DNA of 64,000 bases, taken from assembly GCF_032930845.1 (NCBI RefSeq), contig NZ_CP136758.1, positions 1,813,001-1,877,000 on the forward strand, read 5' to 3'. Source of the DNA: Parvularcula sp. LCG005 (lineage in GTDB: Bacteria; Pseudomonadota; Alphaproteobacteria; Caulobacterales; Parvularculaceae). This document shows positions 19,283 through 31,373 of the stretch, in pieces; position 1 is the first letter of the stretch; each line of letters begins with the position of its first letter. The notes beneath the pieces were generated by a model. The model saw nothing but the letters and a program-made list of their open reading frames with translations, made no database searches and was not told the DNA's origin. Both the position numbers and the translations under genes were made by a program.

Positions 19283-20113
19283 ATGACCCGTAGACGGAGA
19301 GAAAAGACCCATGGTGACCTTTATGAGGCGGTCACCGCCCGGATCATCGCACAGATGGAGGAGGGCACGGTCCCTTGGGTGCAGCCTTCGAGCAGCAAGG
19401 GAACAGGAGCGCGAGAGCCAGCTTTGGCTCACCTTCAAACAGGCGCTCGCCTTGGGCGGGGCGGTACGCAAGGGCGAGAGAGGCACCCCCATCGTCTATG
19501 CCGACCGGTTACGCCGGAGAGCGAACGTCAGAAAGCGGAACAGACAGGCAGGGCCGCGCGGGAAGTCGCCTTCCTCAAGCGGTACACGGTCTTTCACATG
19601 GACCAGTGCGACGGGCTTCCCGGGGACGCCGTCATGGGCCGGGCGCCCCTGTCCCCACGGCAGATCGAGCCCGAGGCGGAAAGGCTGATCCACGCCACGG
19701 GCGCGGATTTTCGGGTCGGCGGGGATAGCGCCTATTACGTGCCGTCTCACGATTTCATTCTGGTCCCGCCGCAAGCGGCCTTCCTGAACCAGATCAATTA
19801 TTACCGCACCTGCTTTCACGAGCTGGGCCATTGGACCGGCCACGCCGCGCGGCTGGCGCGGGACCTCACGACCAAGTTCGGGACCAAGGACGATGCCCGC
19901 GAGGAACTGGTCGCCGAAATGGCGAGCGCGTTCCTCTGCGCCGAAATGGGCATCGTGCCGACCGTGCGGCATGCGGACTATCTGGCGAACTGGCTCGACG
20001 TCCTGCGCGAGGACAAGCGGGCCGTCTTTCGCGCCGCGTCCCTCGCCTCGAAAGCCGCTGACTTCGTTCTGACGTTCCGCACACCGCAAGAGATGGGTCA
20101 ATGCACCGTCTGA
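19283..20113 (+). pseudogene. ardC: ArdC-like antirestriction protein, frame-damaged
   Basis: The frame stays open for 276 codons, but residues about 36-75 are not ArdC-like. In another forward frame the same DNA (about 19390-19510) encodes the expected family stretch (WLTFKQALALGGAVRKGERG, then TPIVYADR). So the gene shifts frame near 19390, apparently at a deletion that also removed the usual segment after VPWVQP, and shifts back near 19507. The rest is intact: FLKRYTVFHMDQCDGLP and the zincin motif HELGHWTGHAARL. Family role: N-terminal ssDNA binding plus a metallopeptidase-like domain, protecting incoming DNA from restriction. With the DNA-binding part scrambled it is probably inactive, though the peptidase-like half would still be translated. 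Confidence 0.82.
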
Positions 20114-20213: not shown

Positions 20214-21761
20214 CTAGGTATTTGTATTGGGGAGGTGCCGACCAACATGCCCAATCACCATCTTCAAACGCTTTTGGTCGAAGATGAAGTGGATTGAAGC
20301 GCAAGAGTTTGGGTCACCTGCGCCAATCGTAATATGGGGCTCGAATAGCTGCTTCTCACCCTCGTACTCAAATTCGTAATCGAAACGAAACTTCCCGCGC
20401 GTCGTGTCGGAGATGTGCATGCTGCTCCGCTTTCCCCAACCGCGGCCGCGCAGATGCTGTAGCAGGTCGCCGCCGCTCCCCTTCTCCCTACGGTTCTTGC
20501 TCCAATCGTCGACGATTTCGTCAAGGTCCCTCAACGCGTTGAAGATGTCATAGGGGCGCTGGAATGGACTCGCCGATGCAGCTGACGTGGCCGATTCGAG
20601 GATCTCCAGGTTCTTACATCGCAGGGCAGCAGCGGTCACAGCCTCCACGACGGACGAGAATGAGAGATCCTCTGACTCGTCGGACTGCGCTAGTTCGCCG
20701 GGACCTTCGGCTCCTGCCTCGAAGAACACCTGCTGGTTAGCTCTGAGATTGGCATTTTCCGCCTCGAGTCCCGCGAGACGTTCCTCTGTCTCTCGGAGCT
20801 TGTCGACGGTTTGCTGGTAGTCTTCCCAAAATTCATCACCCGACTCCCGTTGCTGATCGAGAACCTTTTGACGCTCAGCAGCTTCGACATGCCGGATCAG
20901 GCCAGAAATTCGCTCGTCAGGCACATACCGAAATGCCGCGACAGCGAAGATCGCGCGCTCGATTGTTCGGGCGGCGGCCTGAGGTCCCACCTGCTCGATC
21001 CACGACCCAAAGAACAAGCGGTGGCTTCTCGGGTCGGACGTCTTCGAGAAGCCCGGCCAATAGATTCGAACCGCTCCATTGAAGCATGACAGTTGTCGGC
21101 CGACCTCGTCGGCAAAGTCCCAGGTCAACCCGGGATCCTCGACGCGCACGACCACCGCGACGCCAGCAAGGTTTCGCGCAAGCTTCACAGAATCGATCTG
21201 GTTCAACTCACCGCGGGCATACGGCGAGAGCAAAACGACGGGCAGCTTCCGGAGATCACTCGTTAGAAGGGCAAGTAGATCGTCCAGTCCATCCTGCTTC
21301 AGCGCGTACGGTTCAGCCCGGACCTGCATTTGCCCGATATAAGCGGACGCCTTCGTGCATATGTCCCGGACTGCACGAGGCGAACCGAAGAGCAGCTTCG
21401 CCGGAGCCACACTGTATTCGACAGATTCGATGGAGATGAGGTGCTCGACGCCGCAGCGATCACCGAACTGACCTACGCGGATCTCGTTCGCCCACTTCAA
21501 ACCCACGTCGGTGTCATCAGGGTAAGCCCAGCGCATGCGAACCGCACGTTCGCCACTGTCCTCGAAGACGGAAGAGACCAATGAATGACCTTTCGGAAGC
21601 TCCTCGGGCGCGCCTGCGACCTCTGGGGCGAAATCAAAATCGGGAAGTTCGCGGCGTTCTCTATAGTGCCCGACAATCCAATCCTTATAGGTGGCAAGAA
21701 CGTCCTCGAGACCATCGGCAGCCGCGACTTCAAAGCGACAGGAATAAACCAGACGAGCCAT
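20214..21761 (-). CDS. Unrecognised 515-residue protein, possible defence gene
   Basis: I cannot name the family. Visible organisation: an N-terminal alpha/beta part (about 1-150), a middle domain (about 155-280) containing LARNLAGVAVVVRV and the distinctive FNGAVRIYWPGFSK, a coiled coil (about 290-350, LRETEERLAGLEAENANLRAN), an acidic linker, and a compact C-terminal domain (about 430-515) with FEPHITIGAGDPNSCASIHF and ending VIGHVGRHLPNTN. No transmembrane segment and no signal peptide. The start has GGAAG just upstream. It is transcribed against the neighbouring plasmid-like genes, with base composition closer to the host than its neighbours, as for a cargo gene. Placement between ardC and a parB remnant suggests a defence or host-interaction role; this is inference. 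Confidence 0.75.
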   Translation of the reverse strand: MARLVYSCRFEVAAADGLEDVLATYKDWIVGHYRERRELPDFDFAPEVAGAPEELPKGHSLVSSVFEDSGERAVRMRWAYPDDTDVGLKWANEIRVGQFGDRCGVEHLISIESVEYSVAPAKLLFGSPRAVRDICTKASAYIGQMQVRAEPYALKQDGLDDLLALLTSDLRKLPVVLLSPYARGELNQIDSVKLARNLAGVAVVVRVEDPGLTWDFADEVGRQLSCFNGAVRIYWPGFSKTSDPRSHRLFFGSWIEQVGPQAAARTIERAIFAVAAFRYVPDERISGLIRHVEAAERQKVLDQQRESGDEFWEDYQQTVDKLRETEERLAGLEAENANLRANQQVFFEAGAEGPGELAQSDESEDLSFSSVVEAVTAAALRCKNLEILESATSAASASPFQRPYDIFNALRDLDEIVDDWSKNRREKGSGGDLLQHLRGRGWGKRSSMHISDTTRGKFRFDYEFEYEGEKQLFEPHITIGAGDPNSCASIHFIFDQKRLKMVIGHVGRHLPNTNT

Positions 21762-22847: not shown

Positions 22848-22876
22848 GCGCCCGCCGGTCCCTTACTGGCGGGCGC
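22848..22876 (+). terminator. Stem-loop between DUF736 and DUF2958
   Basis: A perfect 9-bp inverted repeat GCGCCCGCC/GGCGGGCGC with an 11-base loop. There is no T-run after it, so it is either a weak or rho-assisted terminator or an mRNA-stabilising hairpin. Confidence 0.4.
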
Positions 22877-23001
22877 CAAGGCTCCTTCCCCCACGGAGAA
22901 AGATCATGGACCTGATCCTGCCAGAGCAGGCGACCCGCCTGCGCATCCAATTCGAGGACGAAAGCGTCGACCAGCCGCCCCTCGTCAAGCTCTTCTGCCA
23001 C

Positions 23002-23041
23002 GCGATCAACTGCGGACGGACGTCCGCGGGAAGTTGATCGC
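23002..23041 (+). repeat. REP-like palindrome, copy A
   Basis: Outer stem GCGATCAACT (23002-23011) pairs with AGTTGATCGC (23032-23041); inner stem GCGGAC (23012-23017) pairs with GTCCGC (23022-23027); loop GGAC; a one-sided bulge GGGA on the 3' arm. This layout (imperfect palindrome with a small one-sided bulge) is that of repetitive extragenic palindromes. Confidence 0.7.
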
Positions 23042-23052
23042 CACTTTAGATG

Positions 23053-23093
23053 GACATCACCTTTCCGCGTCCGGAAGGACGCGGGGTGATGTC
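23053..23093 (-). repeat. REP-like palindrome, copy B, inverted to copy A
   Basis: Outer stem GACATCACC (23053-23061) with GGTGATGTC (23085-23093); inner stem CCGCGTCC (23065-23072) with GGACGCGG (23077-23084); loop GGAA; bulge TTT on the 5' arm. Its reverse complement lines up with copy A in the 3' arm (CGCGGAAAGGTGATGTC against CGCGGGAAGTTGATCGC, about 12 of 17 identical), so A and B form a head-to-head pair about 11 bp apart, like a BIME. Confidence 0.68.
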
Positions 23094-23486
23094 GCGGGCG
23101 CCGGAACCTGGCTCCTCTCCGGGCTCACCGAGGACGACGCCCTCGGCTTCGGCCTCTGCGACCTCGGCATGGGCTTCCCCGAACTCGGCTATGTGTCGCT
23201 CGACGAGCTTCGAGGCATCAGAGGTCCCTTCGGCCTCACCATCGAACGAGACCTCACCTTCGAGCCCCTCGCGACCCTGACGGTCTATGCCGAGGCGGCC
23301 CGCATGGCCGAAGGCGTGGTCGAGGACCGGGCTTCCTTGGAGGCCGCCTTCGAACGGCTCGAGCGCCGCGCCAAGGAGGACCGACGGGTCCTCAAAGCTC
23401 GGATGCTCTGACTTCTGTGGCGGGCCGGGTTACCTCGGTCCGCCGCGCGCCGCGCACCGCATGGGAGCCGTCAACGCAAGGCTCCG

Positions 23487-23517
23487 CATTGCAATGTCAT
23501 GCACTCTGCACTACATG
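23487..23517 (+). promoter_or_regulatory. Putative promoter/operator of the toxin-antitoxin operon
   Basis: A perfect 10-bp palindrome CATTGCAATG (23487-23496) overlaps a possible -35 box TTGCAA (23489-23494); 17 bases later is TACATG, a weak -10. A second inverted repeat TGCA-CTC-TGCA is at 23500-23510. Self-repression by antitoxin binding to palindromes is usual for DUF1778 antitoxins; the assignment here is by position only. Confidence 0.4.
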
Positions 23518-23537
23518 TTGGCGGTCAGGAGGCCACC

Positions 23538-23846
23538 ATGCTCGACATCGATCTGTCCGATCTCAGCCAGGACAAGGGCGCGCGCACGACCCAGCTGCGC
23601 CATGGCGACCGCCTGGCCGATCTCATCGACCGCGCCGTCGCGGCCCTCGGCGTCGAGAAATCGACCTTCCTCCGGGCCGCCATCGCCAAGGAAGCCCAGC
23701 GCATCCTCAAGGAGAGCAGCCGCCATTTGATGAGCGCCGAGGACGCGGCGAAATTCGAGGCCGCTCTCGACCGAAAACCGACGGTCACGAGTAAGGCCAA
23801 GGCCGCCGCCAAAGCCTATCGCGCCCGGGTGGTGCATGCCGACTGA
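23538..23846 (+). CDS. DUF1778-type antitoxin (TacA-like)
   Basis: 102 residues from the ATG at 23538 (MLDIDLSDLSQDKG), preceded by AGGAGG. The ribbon-helix-helix core is TTQLRHGDRLADLIDRAVAA followed by LGVEKSTFLRAAIAKEAQRIL. The C-terminal tail, ending KAYRARVVHAD, should wrap and inhibit the acetyltransferase toxin. The stop lies 11 bp inside the toxin gene. An upstream in-frame start at 23499 lies in the promoter region and is unlikely. Confidence 0.88.
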   Translation: MLDIDLSDLSQDKGARTTQLRHGDRLADLIDRAVAALGVEKSTFLRAAIAKEAQRILKESSRHLMSAEDAAKFEAALDRKPTVTSKAKAAAKAYRARVVHAD

Positions 23847-24381
23847 GCGGAAAGCGCCGCTTCGCATCGAACGTTTCGACCCTGCGCGGCATGACCGGGC
23901 CGGGTTCTCCTGCGGGGTGCCACGCCTCGACAATTTCCTCCAGCTCACTGCCAAGCAGCAGCAGACCGCCGACATGACCCGGGTCTATGTGGCGGTCGAG
24001 GACGGTGAGGACCGCATTCTCGGCTATCACACCATCGGCATGGGGATGATGGAGGCGAGCCTCCTCAAGAAACGGCCCCGCGGCGCCCCCGACCATGGCG
24101 AGCTTCCGGTCCTCTTCCTCGGTCAGGTCGCGGTGGATGGGCGCGCCCAAGGACAGGGCCTCGGCGGCATCCTGATGCAACATGTCTTCGAGAAGGCCCG
24201 ATTGGTGGCCGATGAAGCCGGATGCTTCGCCCTCCTCCTCGACGTGATGACCGATGGCGGCGAGGAGTCGTTCGAGCGGCGGCGCGCGTGGTACGCCTCA
24301 TTCGGGTTCGAGCCTTTCCCGAGCCGCCCGGCGCGCATGTTCCTGACACTGAAGGATGTGCGGGCGATCCTCTGTGAGTAG
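23836..24381 (+). CDS. GNAT acetyltransferase toxin (TacT/AtaT-like)
   Basis: 181 residues, GNAT fold. FxCGVPRLDNFLQ-type N-terminus (FSCGVPRLDNFLQLTAKQQQ), acetyl-CoA loop LFLGQVAVDGRAQGQGLGG, and the C-terminal catalytic-type Tyr in RRAWYASFGFEPFP. Members of this family acetylate the amino group of charged tRNAs and block translation. The gene overlaps its DUF1778 antitoxin by 11 bp, the standard arrangement. All key motifs look intact, so the pair may be active and help retain the decayed element. Confidence 0.9.
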   Translation: MPTERKAPLRIERFDPARHDRAGFSCGVPRLDNFLQLTAKQQQTADMTRVYVAVEDGEDRILGYHTIGMGMMEASLLKKRPRGAPDHGELPVLFLGQVAVDGRAQGQGLGGILMQHVFEKARLVADEAGCFALLLDVMTDGGEESFERRRAWYASFGFEPFPSRPARMFLTLKDVRAILCE

Positions 24382-29601: not shown

Positions 29602-29829
29602 ATGCCGCGCGAACCCGACAATCTTGAGCGCCTCTACGAAGCCCGGCGCATTGCTGCCCACGTGGTCCGCTGTTGCGGCCCCGGCTATCGCGGCCTCTTC
29701 CAGCGCCTCGACCTTGAGATCGCTCAGCGCGAAGAGGAAGAGACCCGGCTCACGGCCTGCCTCAACGCGACGCGACCTCATCATCGAGCCGCTCGAAGAT
29801 CTCGGGCTAAAACGGGTGGGCGATCTTGA
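29602..29829 (+). CDS. Possible small hypothetical protein
   Basis: 75 residues. The first two thirds (NLERLYEARRIAAHVVRCCG, LFQRLDLEIAQREEEETRL) look like a helical protein; the end is low complexity and overlaps the integrase 3' end by 23 bp. No good ribosome site. The stretch 29397-29601 beside it shows nothing else. Confidence 0.35.
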   Translation: MPREPDNLERLYEARRIAAHVVRCCGPGYRGLFQRLDLEIAQREEEETRLTACLNATRPHHRAARRSRAKTGGRS

Positions 29830-31195
29830 GAAGCTCATCCCGCCGATAGGCGAGTGAACCGCCATCACCGTAAACCGGCCGGGTCGTCTTGCGCCCCATC
29901 AGGAGGCAACGCAGCCCATAGTCGATATTGGCCTCCTGCATCCGCTTCTCGAAGGCATGCCGGAACGAATAGATGACATGATCCGGGGTCGGAAAAAGAC
30001 CGCGGCGTCGAAATCCCTTCATCATATTGGCGGAGAAGAGCTCGCTCTTGTCCTGATAGCGGGGGAAGCCGCCCCGGCCACGCTTGGCCGCCTCCAACGC
30101 GACGCCGACCAGCGGAATTTCGCGAGCCGAGGTCAGGGTCTTGATCTCGCGGCTGGTCCGGGCCCGGATGGCGATGTGAGGGACAGCCGCCTCGATCACG
30201 ATATCCTCCGGCTGCAGATTGATGATCTCGCTCGGGCGACATCCCGTTTCGATCAGCATATAGGTGATGACCTGGAGGTCTAGATTGAGACCGAGCAGCG
30301 CACCTGGCTTCAGGATCCGGCTCCGGACCCAGTCATTCTCGAAGGGCGGCACTTCGGTCCGCGACTTGGCTTTGAAGTGGATGCCGCGGAATGGGTTCGG
30401 ACGCTCTTCCTCGCCGATATGCTTGAAATAGGACGTGTACAGCGTCCGGATATTCCCGATATGGCGGTTCGCCGTGTTCGGTGCCACGGGCTTGGCCTTG
30501 GGATCGGTGGGCTTCACCTGGGCCGACCACCAGCGCTGATAATCGAGGGCGTGGTCTCTCGTGATCTCGGTGAGGACGAGATCGCCGACCTGGTCGATGA
30601 AATAGCCGATCGAGGTGCGCTTGGTCTTCTCCCAGCTGTAGCGCTGGCGGGGGGACTTGTAGAGGGTGTCGTTGAAGGCGATCTCACGCAGATAGATCTC
30701 GAACGCATCGGAGACCCTGACCGGCGGCTGCGGCGCACCGCCCAGAAGCGCCTCGGCTTCCCGCGGCGCGATGTCATCGCTGTGGCTCCGCTCCCGGACG
30801 GCGAGCAGCCGCTCGACGAGGTCGTCGAGGTCGGGGGTCGCAGCGAGGCGGTCGACCGTCCGGTAGGTGAAGCCCGCCGCCAGCGCCCGGGTCTGGGCAG
30901 CCTTATGCCGCTGACGCAGCGCCCCCAAGGCCTCGGCTCCGCCCTCCCCGGCAGCGGCCTGGGCCAGCCCTTGCCAATAGGCATCGTCGGCCTCGGCCAG
31001 ATGGTCACGGCGCAGGCGAGCCACTTCCAGAGAGTCCGTCCCCAGACTTTCTCTGATTGTGCCGCGGGTATCGAGATGGGCAAAACGGGTCGGGACGCGG
31101 CGGCAATACCACCATCTCCGGCCGCGTGATTTGAGGTAGCGATCGGCGTCGGACCGGCTCACCATGAGCAGCGGTGTAGCACGTTTTGTGGACAT
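29807..31195 (-). CDS. int: Tyrosine-type site-specific integrase
   Basis: About 462 residues from the ATG at 31193-31195; ATG at 31165 is an alternative. N-terminal DUF6538-like region (DADRYLKSRGRRWWYCRRVP), a core-binding domain (about 150-270) and a C-terminal catalytic domain with the first Arg in ETGCRPSEIINLQPEDI, the second Arg in YSFRHAFEKRM (Tyr replaces the usual first His of HxxR) and the nucleophile Tyr in RPVYGDGGS. Lies about 100 bp from the 3' end of tRNA-Asp and points away from it, the standard arrangement for an element integrated at a tRNA gene. The frame is intact. Confidence 0.9.
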   Translation of the reverse strand: MSTKRATPLLMVSRSDADRYLKSRGRRWWYCRRVPTRFAHLDTRGTIRESLGTDSLEVARLRRDHLAEADDAYWQGLAQAAAGEGGAEALGALRQRHKAAQTRALAAGFTYRTVDRLAATPDLDDLVERLLAVRERSHSDDIAPREAEALLGGAPQPPVRVSDAFEIYLREIAFNDTLYKSPRQRYSWEKTKRTSIGYFIDQVGDLVLTEITRDHALDYQRWWSAQVKPTDPKAKPVAPNTANRHIGNIRTLYTSYFKHIGEEERPNPFRGIHFKAKSRTEVPPFENDWVRSRILKPGALLGLNLDLQVITYMLIETGCRPSEIINLQPEDIVIEAAVPHIAIRARTSREIKTLTSAREIPLVGVALEAAKRGRGGFPRYQDKSELFSANMMKGFRRRGLFPTPDHVIYSFRHAFEKRMQEANIDYGLRCLLMGRKTTRPVYGDGGSLAYRRDELLKIAHPF

Positions 31196-31296
31196 TTTGT
31201 AGCACGATTTCCCCGGTTGGGGCGCGCCACTCACACGAAGCAAACGAGAAAACCGTTTGTTTCCAATACTTTGGCCAATTTCTGATGAGCAGAAAA

Positions 31297-31373
31297 TGGC
31301 GCGAGTGACGGGGCTCGAACCCGCGACCTCCGGCGTGACAGGCCGGCACTCTAACCAGCTGAGCTACACCCGC
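31297..31373 (-). tRNA. tRNA-Asp (GTC)
   Basis: On the minus strand: acceptor stem GCGGGTG/CACTCGC with one G-T pair, D-arm GCTCAGCTGGTTAGAGT, anticodon stem CCGGC/GCCGG with loop CTGTCAC (anticodon GTC), T-arm GCGGGTTCGAGCCCCG-like, discriminator G and an encoded CCA. 77 bases. The 3' end faces the integrase, so it is the probable attachment site. It appears complete, as expected when integration restores the gene. Confidence 0.95.

Follow-up and report, generated by a model that had tools for sequence, protein, structure and literature searches.

What is the sequence that separates the two halves of a broken DUF2958 gene in Parvularcula sp. LCG005, and by what process did it come to lie there? 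The gene sits in a stretch of 64,000 nucleotides of this genome that we analysed as a whole (the 64-kb window). A sequence-only reading had noted two mirrored, bulged hairpins between the gene halves and had taken them for a recently inserted pair of head-to-head REP-like palindromes, possibly moved by a RAYT-type transposase. On balance we find it probable that the insert is a single short non-autonomous mobile element, a divergent relative of the CIR-like two-arm repeats, and that it was inserted recently. The DUF2958 locus is itself a minor event, and a filled and an empty site within one gene provide a precise insertion footprint.

The insert and the gene that it interrupts

The locus comprises the following features, where G050 and G056 are two genomes with an orthologous DUF2958 gene, and G010, G257 and G721 are genomes with further copies of the repeat:

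22906 to 22999, plus strand: 5' half of the DUF2958 gene (N-terminus MDLILPEQ...VKLFC), with 88 of 94 nucleotides identical to G050 and 90 of 94 to G056
23000 to 23095, no strand assigned: inserted two-hairpin element, 96 nt replacing 4 target bases, with empty sites in the two orthologues
23001 to 23004, plus strand: left terminal CGCG, which replaces the YTAR (mostly CTAG) end of other family copies
23002 to 23041, plus strand: hairpin 1, bulged on its 3' arm (inverted-repeat search and DNA fold)
23042 to 23052, plus strand: spacer CACTTTAGATG, whose CACTTT motif is also present in G010, G257 and G721 copies
23053 to 23093, plus strand: hairpin 2, bulged on its 5' arm, an inverted and diverged copy of hairpin 1 (DNA fold, alignment and shuffles)
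23093 to 23096, plus strand: right terminal CGCG, whose final base doubles as the start of the right flank
23096 to 23411, plus strand: 3' half of the DUF2958 gene (PF11171, E 5.9e-29, profile 35-111), with 291 of 315 nucleotides identical to G050 (23097-23411)

Both hairpins fold as first described, mirrored bulges included. Hairpin 1 has a 10-bp outer stem, a 4-nt bulge on the 3' arm, a 6-bp inner stem and a 4-nt loop; hairpin 2, which follows after 11 nt, has a 9-bp outer stem, a 3-nt bulge on the 5' arm, an 8-bp inner stem and a 4-nt loop. The surrounding 116 nt (22995-23110) have a folding energy of -38 kcal/mol, where shuffled sequences average -21.6 (z -5.9), and none of 200 shuffles was equally low. 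The BIME-like head-to-head arrangement is supported. When hairpin 1 is inverted and set against hairpin 2 in register, 29 of 48 columns are identical (18 of 29 in the 5' half), a level that 50,000 pair-preserving shuffles reached at p 6e-5 to 1.2e-4. Plain local alignment is weaker (p 0.017, or 0.034 counting two orientations) and yields the same score of 11 for hairpin 1 inverted and uninverted alike, because the units are nearly palindromic. Since the local score is blind to orientation, the reading of the hairpins as inverted copies depends on the register of stems and bulges. The insert has no match in Rfam, and attC and intron readings of it were weighed and dropped.

That the hairpins interrupt a once intact gene is borne out by its relatives. 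The upstream DUF2958 frame reads into a stop within the insert. G050 and G056, whose orthologues share 92% and 91% of residues with the DUF2958 gene, read CTTCTGCC-CCTG-GGGCGCC at the site, and the window reads CTTCTGCC followed by 96 nt and GGGCGCC, a net gain of 92 with loss of the frame. The C-terminal half of DUF2958 was matched in 7 of 62 genomes of the family, the host being one of the seven. Among the best 80 of 114 DUF2958 homologues in the genome_contigs collection, none carries an insert at this site, as coding sequence or otherwise, and in 79 the reading frame stays open over the 25 or more codons that precede the match. The exception (L210) has a stop 17 codons upstream of the match, yet its residues continue across the insertion point without an insert. 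The covariance model of the family introduced below (R2) found nothing at E <= 0.01 in the loci around these best 80 of 114 homologues.

The event also looks recent, as had been proposed. Third codon positions take 11 of the 15 substitutions that the two gene halves acquired in their own lineage, and 8 of 14 in the lineage of G050. This bias indicates that the gene was under coding constraint through most of its separate history, and thus the insertion is young compared with the split from the orthologues in G050 and G056.

Alignment with intact DUF2958 genes bounds the insert at 23000-23095, close to the limits first given for it, but no target duplication could be shown at the site. If the CGCG were a duplicated target, the ancestral gene would have encoded His-Ala, and the relatives have Pro-Trp there. 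The Pro is present in 70 of the 78 scorable homologues among the best 80 of 114, with Trp next to it in the closest ones. Given this conservation, a replacement of 4 bp fits better than a duplication of CGCG. Replacement is also the simpler reading; transposition does not normally leave such a footprint, and the insertion may have followed another route than usual. TA is absent at both junctions.

Two further observations concern the DUF2958 gene and its upstream region. The orthologue in G056 (Parvularcula oceani contig 6; L019/L013) shows a deletion of one base when set beside the other two genes, which may mean that the gene is dispensable or may be an error in the draft sequence. Between the DUF736 and DUF2958 genes, a 12-bp inverted repeat (22848-22876; 92% complementary, 5-nt loop) is largely kept in G050 and G056 and is likely a terminator or attenuator.

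Two-hairpin repeats in other genomes

The sequence-only reading had implied a dispersed palindrome with further copies in the host, and in the host we found a single one. blastn returned this site only, the eight other matches having E 0.58 or worse. A degenerate core pattern with at most three mismatches occurs at 38 places, against 9 for the reversed control, and is matched perfectly by the two hairpins alone. We folded eight of these places (both hairpins and six others) and ran a model of the window's two hairpins (R1) on the 28 loci fetched besides the hairpins, so that 30 of the 38 places were covered. Three loci gave matches at E <= 1: L022 (0.004), L027 (0.1, at another position) and L042 (0.94). 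The best of these, L022, has one pattern mismatch and scores 20.4 bits, which corresponds to E 0.004 in 84.6 kb and 0.14 genome-wide, and lies within a 470-aa open frame that looks integrase-like by eye. With R2, the insert is the only host match at E <= 0.001 (E 1.2e-7). The insert is thus the sole convincing copy of its family found in the host genome.

The dispersal lies in other genomes. Within the 62 family genomes, R1 produced 11 matches at E <= 1 in G010, the strongest at 5.5e-6, and 13 other genomes gave scattered matches of lower strength; among 398 genomes of the order, five have a match at E <= 0.01, G257 being newly found. The copies in G010 share the layout of the insert: a hairpin bulged on the spacer side, a spacer of the CACTTTGGAA type, and a second hairpin bulged on the spacer side. 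In G010, blastn located copies or fragments of them at 40 places, as 58 pieces with E <= 1, and it located none in the host or in G257.

To place the insert relative to these repeats we rely on R2, which was built from six G010 and two G257 copies with the window excluded. In its four helices 94.6% of cells are paired, and both sides have changed in 15 of 37 pairs. Its covariation score is 0.360 against 0.164 for shuffled alignments, with none of 500 shuffles as high; one of the five measures, the number of further pair types, is unexceptional (86 of 500). With eight related rows, the covariation supports the family structure rather than proving it. Searched against the 64-kb window, R2 has two matches below E 1, and these are the two strands of the insert (E 2.4e-9 on the minus and 3.5e-9 on the plus strand). 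The match covers 23001-23094 and the full length of the model (1-107 of 107), and the spacer and the bulges line up. A match at E <= 0.001 was obtained in 18 of 385 class genomes, the host and 17 of 384 others. At most 10 candidates per genome were scored with R2 in the class and 15 with R1 in the order, which makes the copy numbers floors. The full-length match indicates that the insert is a member of a repeat family whose carriers fall into several taxonomic families of the class.

No near-identical copy of the insert was found in plasmids, in genome_contigs or in the family, order and class genomes searched. In plasmids, the insert at E <= 10 drew seven records with matches of 20-25 nt only, and two family copies at E <= 1e-5 drew none. 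The pattern GGACATCACCTTTCCGCG found nothing in viral contigs and the pattern GATNNCCACTTTAGATGGNNATC nothing in genome_contigs. A 22-nt exact match in one viral contig, inside an open frame that looks integrase-like by eye and with no second hairpin, was taken as chance. Rfam returned two weak matches for nine family loci, both far below the gathering scores. In the draft genome G642, six of ten fetched contig stretches (L251, L256-L260) stop at a repeat copy or no more than 24 bases away from one, which suggests a high copy number that breaks the assembly.

Ends and landing places of typical copies

Class-wide, we read the ends of 36 copies from 40 fetched loci in 14 genomes, together with the window copy; four loci cut by contig ends (L257-L260) were omitted, and 15 of the 36 copies come from G642 and G721. 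TA stands at both ends in 34 of the 36, the first base being C (25) or T (11) and the last G (28) or A (8). Within G010, where 26 of 30 loci were read and four with aligned spans of at most 80 nt omitted, TA is present at both ends in 14 of 26 copies (left in 23, right in 17). GANTC occurs in the loop region of the second hairpin in 24 of the 36 class copies and in 20 of the 26 from G010. The window copy has CGCG at both ends, with GC where the others have TA, it carries no GANTC on either strand, and the part of it that corresponds to the long second hairpin is shorter.

The edges of the G010 copies often coincide with the ends of genes. TAG is found at 39 of 52 edges, and at 30 of these it closes an open frame of 80 codons or more; the other two frames are open over that length at 15 and 3 of the 52 edges. 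In 24 of the 26 copies (within L097-L126), such a frame stops with TAG at an edge of the copy. The element is missing from five alignable sites in the related genome G011, whose identity to G010 in the region compared is 86%. At three of them (L098, L106, L108) G011 already has CTAG at the left junction, as the stop of the gene, and the other two do not show CTAG (L105 reads TCAG, L089 is unclear); the right flanks of L098 and L106 are diverged or displaced in G011. This comparison of filled and empty sites suggests CTAG, often at stop codons, as the typical landing place. We read the typical copies as inserting at CTAG, and hence often at TAG stops, so that TA or CTAG is left on both sides, which is likely, but not proven, to be a true target duplication. 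In G010, then, a CIR-like repeat appears to target CTAG stop codons. Closeness to TAG stops has likewise been reported for GTAG REPs, as excerpted from PMC3733652, and no title on CTAG targeting by alphaproteobacterial palindromic repeats was found among titles of the open-licence literature.

Among described repeats the closest kind is CIR (CIR1-CIR4, the CcrM/CerM-associated intergenic repeats of Caulobacter, Brucella and relatives), with which the family was compared by description. The excerpted account describes elements of about 110 bp in which a linker connects two arms, with TA termini and GANTC in a loop, names Caulobacter as a CIR-rich genus, states that CIRs have not been encountered inside genes, and treats the mechanism of their mobility as unsettled and in need of more information (PMC2229807). 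Like a CIR, the window insert consists of two independent long stem-loop arms and a linker, at 96 nt somewhat short against about 100-110 bp, and its homologues in other genomes have the TA ends and the GANTC in the second-arm loop region. Unlike a CIR, the window copy is intragenic and single, ends in CGCG rather than TA and lacks GANTC. RIMEs (Rhizobium-specific intergenic mosaic elements) comprise two palindromes in about 108 bp. They too belong to Alphaproteobacteria, as intergenic repeats of rhizobia (PMC2245857, PMC2573895); compared by description, the window copy departs from them in that it lies inside a gene and its host is not a rhizobium. GTAG and CGTC REPs form palindrome dimers (BIMEs), some of them inside genes, from units of 20-40 bp with a tag at one end, and the CGTC type is mostly alphaproteobacterial, with no known transposase in the excerpted text (PMC3733652). 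The arms of the window insert are longer than these and bulged, and the other family copies have TA at both ends. In size and in the TA ends of its other copies, the family also resembles RUP, Correia/NEMIS and other bacterial MITEs of about 107 bp, as far as these are covered in the excerpt of PMC2229807, but the window copy is without their terminal inverted repeats and target duplication.

Origin of the insert and candidate movers

If the insert is a mobile element of this family, it would have entered the DUF2958 gene in the way in which family copies transpose in other genomes, probably at a time when the conjugative remnant that surrounds it resided in a different host. A horizontally acquired carrier would explain why the host has a lone copy. 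Typical copies tend to settle on CTAG, in many cases the TAG stop of a gene, and do little harm there; the window copy entered an ordinary coding position and broke the gene. Several features count against such an origin, namely the absence of TA or CTAG ends and of GANTC, the shorter second arm, the 4-bp replacement, and the lack of a near-identical copy and of a linked transposase.

Which enzyme might move such elements? IS630-type transposases prefer CTAG. Mobilisation as a MITE-like element, by an IS630/Tc1-mariner-type transposase with the TA in CTAG as its cutting site, would account for the TA flanked by C/T and G/A at the ends of 34 of 36 class copies and for the CTAG at three of five alignable G011 sites, and has a precedent in RUP and IS630-Spn1, in the excerpt of PMC2229807. 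We nonetheless think it improbable. PF13358 (DDE_3) was not found in the host, G010 and five more of the 12 genomes tested (G011, G476, G752, G563, G519), the eight DDE_3 loci found in the other five contain no R2 match, TA is present at both ends in only 14 of 26 G010 copies, and the window copy has none. Perhaps the CIR-like elements form one class-wide transposon family homing to CTAG and TAG stops, with a mover that is neither RAYT nor IS630, of which the window copy represents a subfamily. The terminal TA would there have changed to GC together with its pairing partner in hairpin 1, the target would be read by base pairing with the element, and the shifted pair would let it enter genes. 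We hold this scheme to be quite improbable. Transfer of a REP/BIME pair by a RAYT (Y1, HUH) transposase, which the sequence-only reading had raised as a possibility, would agree with two inverted bulged palindromes, with the GTGG and ATGG that sit 5' of the two hairpins and recall the tetranucleotide of RAYT-linked REPs, and with the presence of Y1_Tnp (PF01797) in 12 of the 62 family genomes and in the Caulobacter vibrioides control. That control was positive together with E. coli and three others, and still neither the host nor G010, with the element at 40 places, has a PF01797 match; 34 of 36 class copies are bounded by TA on both sides instead of bearing a GTAG tag on one, and CIR-type repeats resemble the family more closely than RAYT-linked REPs do. 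We therefore regard RAYT mobilisation as very unlikely. G010 is estimated to be 92% complete, and a gene may thus be missing from its assembly. In the host genome, RAYT, the rve integrase core (PF00665) and IS630 were each searched for as resident mobilisers, and none was matched. The landing-site result makes the question of the transposase testable in genomes with many near-identical copies.

It is also conceivable that nothing transposed. Templated repair or slippage that builds quasi-palindromes could have produced the insert in place, its family likeness being a convergence of hairpins. Four target bases were replaced with no duplication seen, the copy is the only one in the genome, and its ends are CGCG, all of which would suit such an origin. 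Neither blastn nor the pattern search, however, detected a similar source sequence in the genome, and convergence would have to reproduce a match to the whole of R2 at E 2.4e-9, spacer and bulges aligned, so that we judge an origin in place highly unlikely. Even less credit, practically none, goes to the idea that the hairpin pair is a selected regulatory structure, a terminator or RNA-processing site, kept in the gene: the fold is stable, but the pair is absent from the examined homologues, truncates the protein and has no Rfam match.

The mobile element that we take the insert to be would probably have come into this genome together with its surroundings. The genes around it encode ArdC-like, DUF736 and DUF2958 proteins, a TacA-like/GNAT pair, SSB, TraK and TraE, a TraA match scores below its cut-off, and a gene with a DUF6538 domain adjoins tRNA-Asp farther along. 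Judging from this gene content, we read the neighbourhood as the remnant of a conjugative element; no attachment-site repeat was found within the 64-kb window.

Individual genes of the region deserve mention in their own right. The ArdC-like anti-restriction gene (19283-20113) has an N-terminal domain that covers only positions 2-33 of the 123 of its profile, followed by a metallopeptidase domain, and looks internally deleted or frameshifted. A 515-aa open frame on the minus strand (20214-21761), within the conjugative remnant, matches nothing in Pfam or NCBIfam. A TacA-like antitoxin and a GNAT acetyltransferase (23499-24381), in the layout of a TacAT-type toxin-antitoxin system, follow immediately after the broken DUF2958 gene. 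The 478-aa DUF6538-domain protein beside tRNA-Asp (29807-31373) is possibly a tyrosine recombinase.
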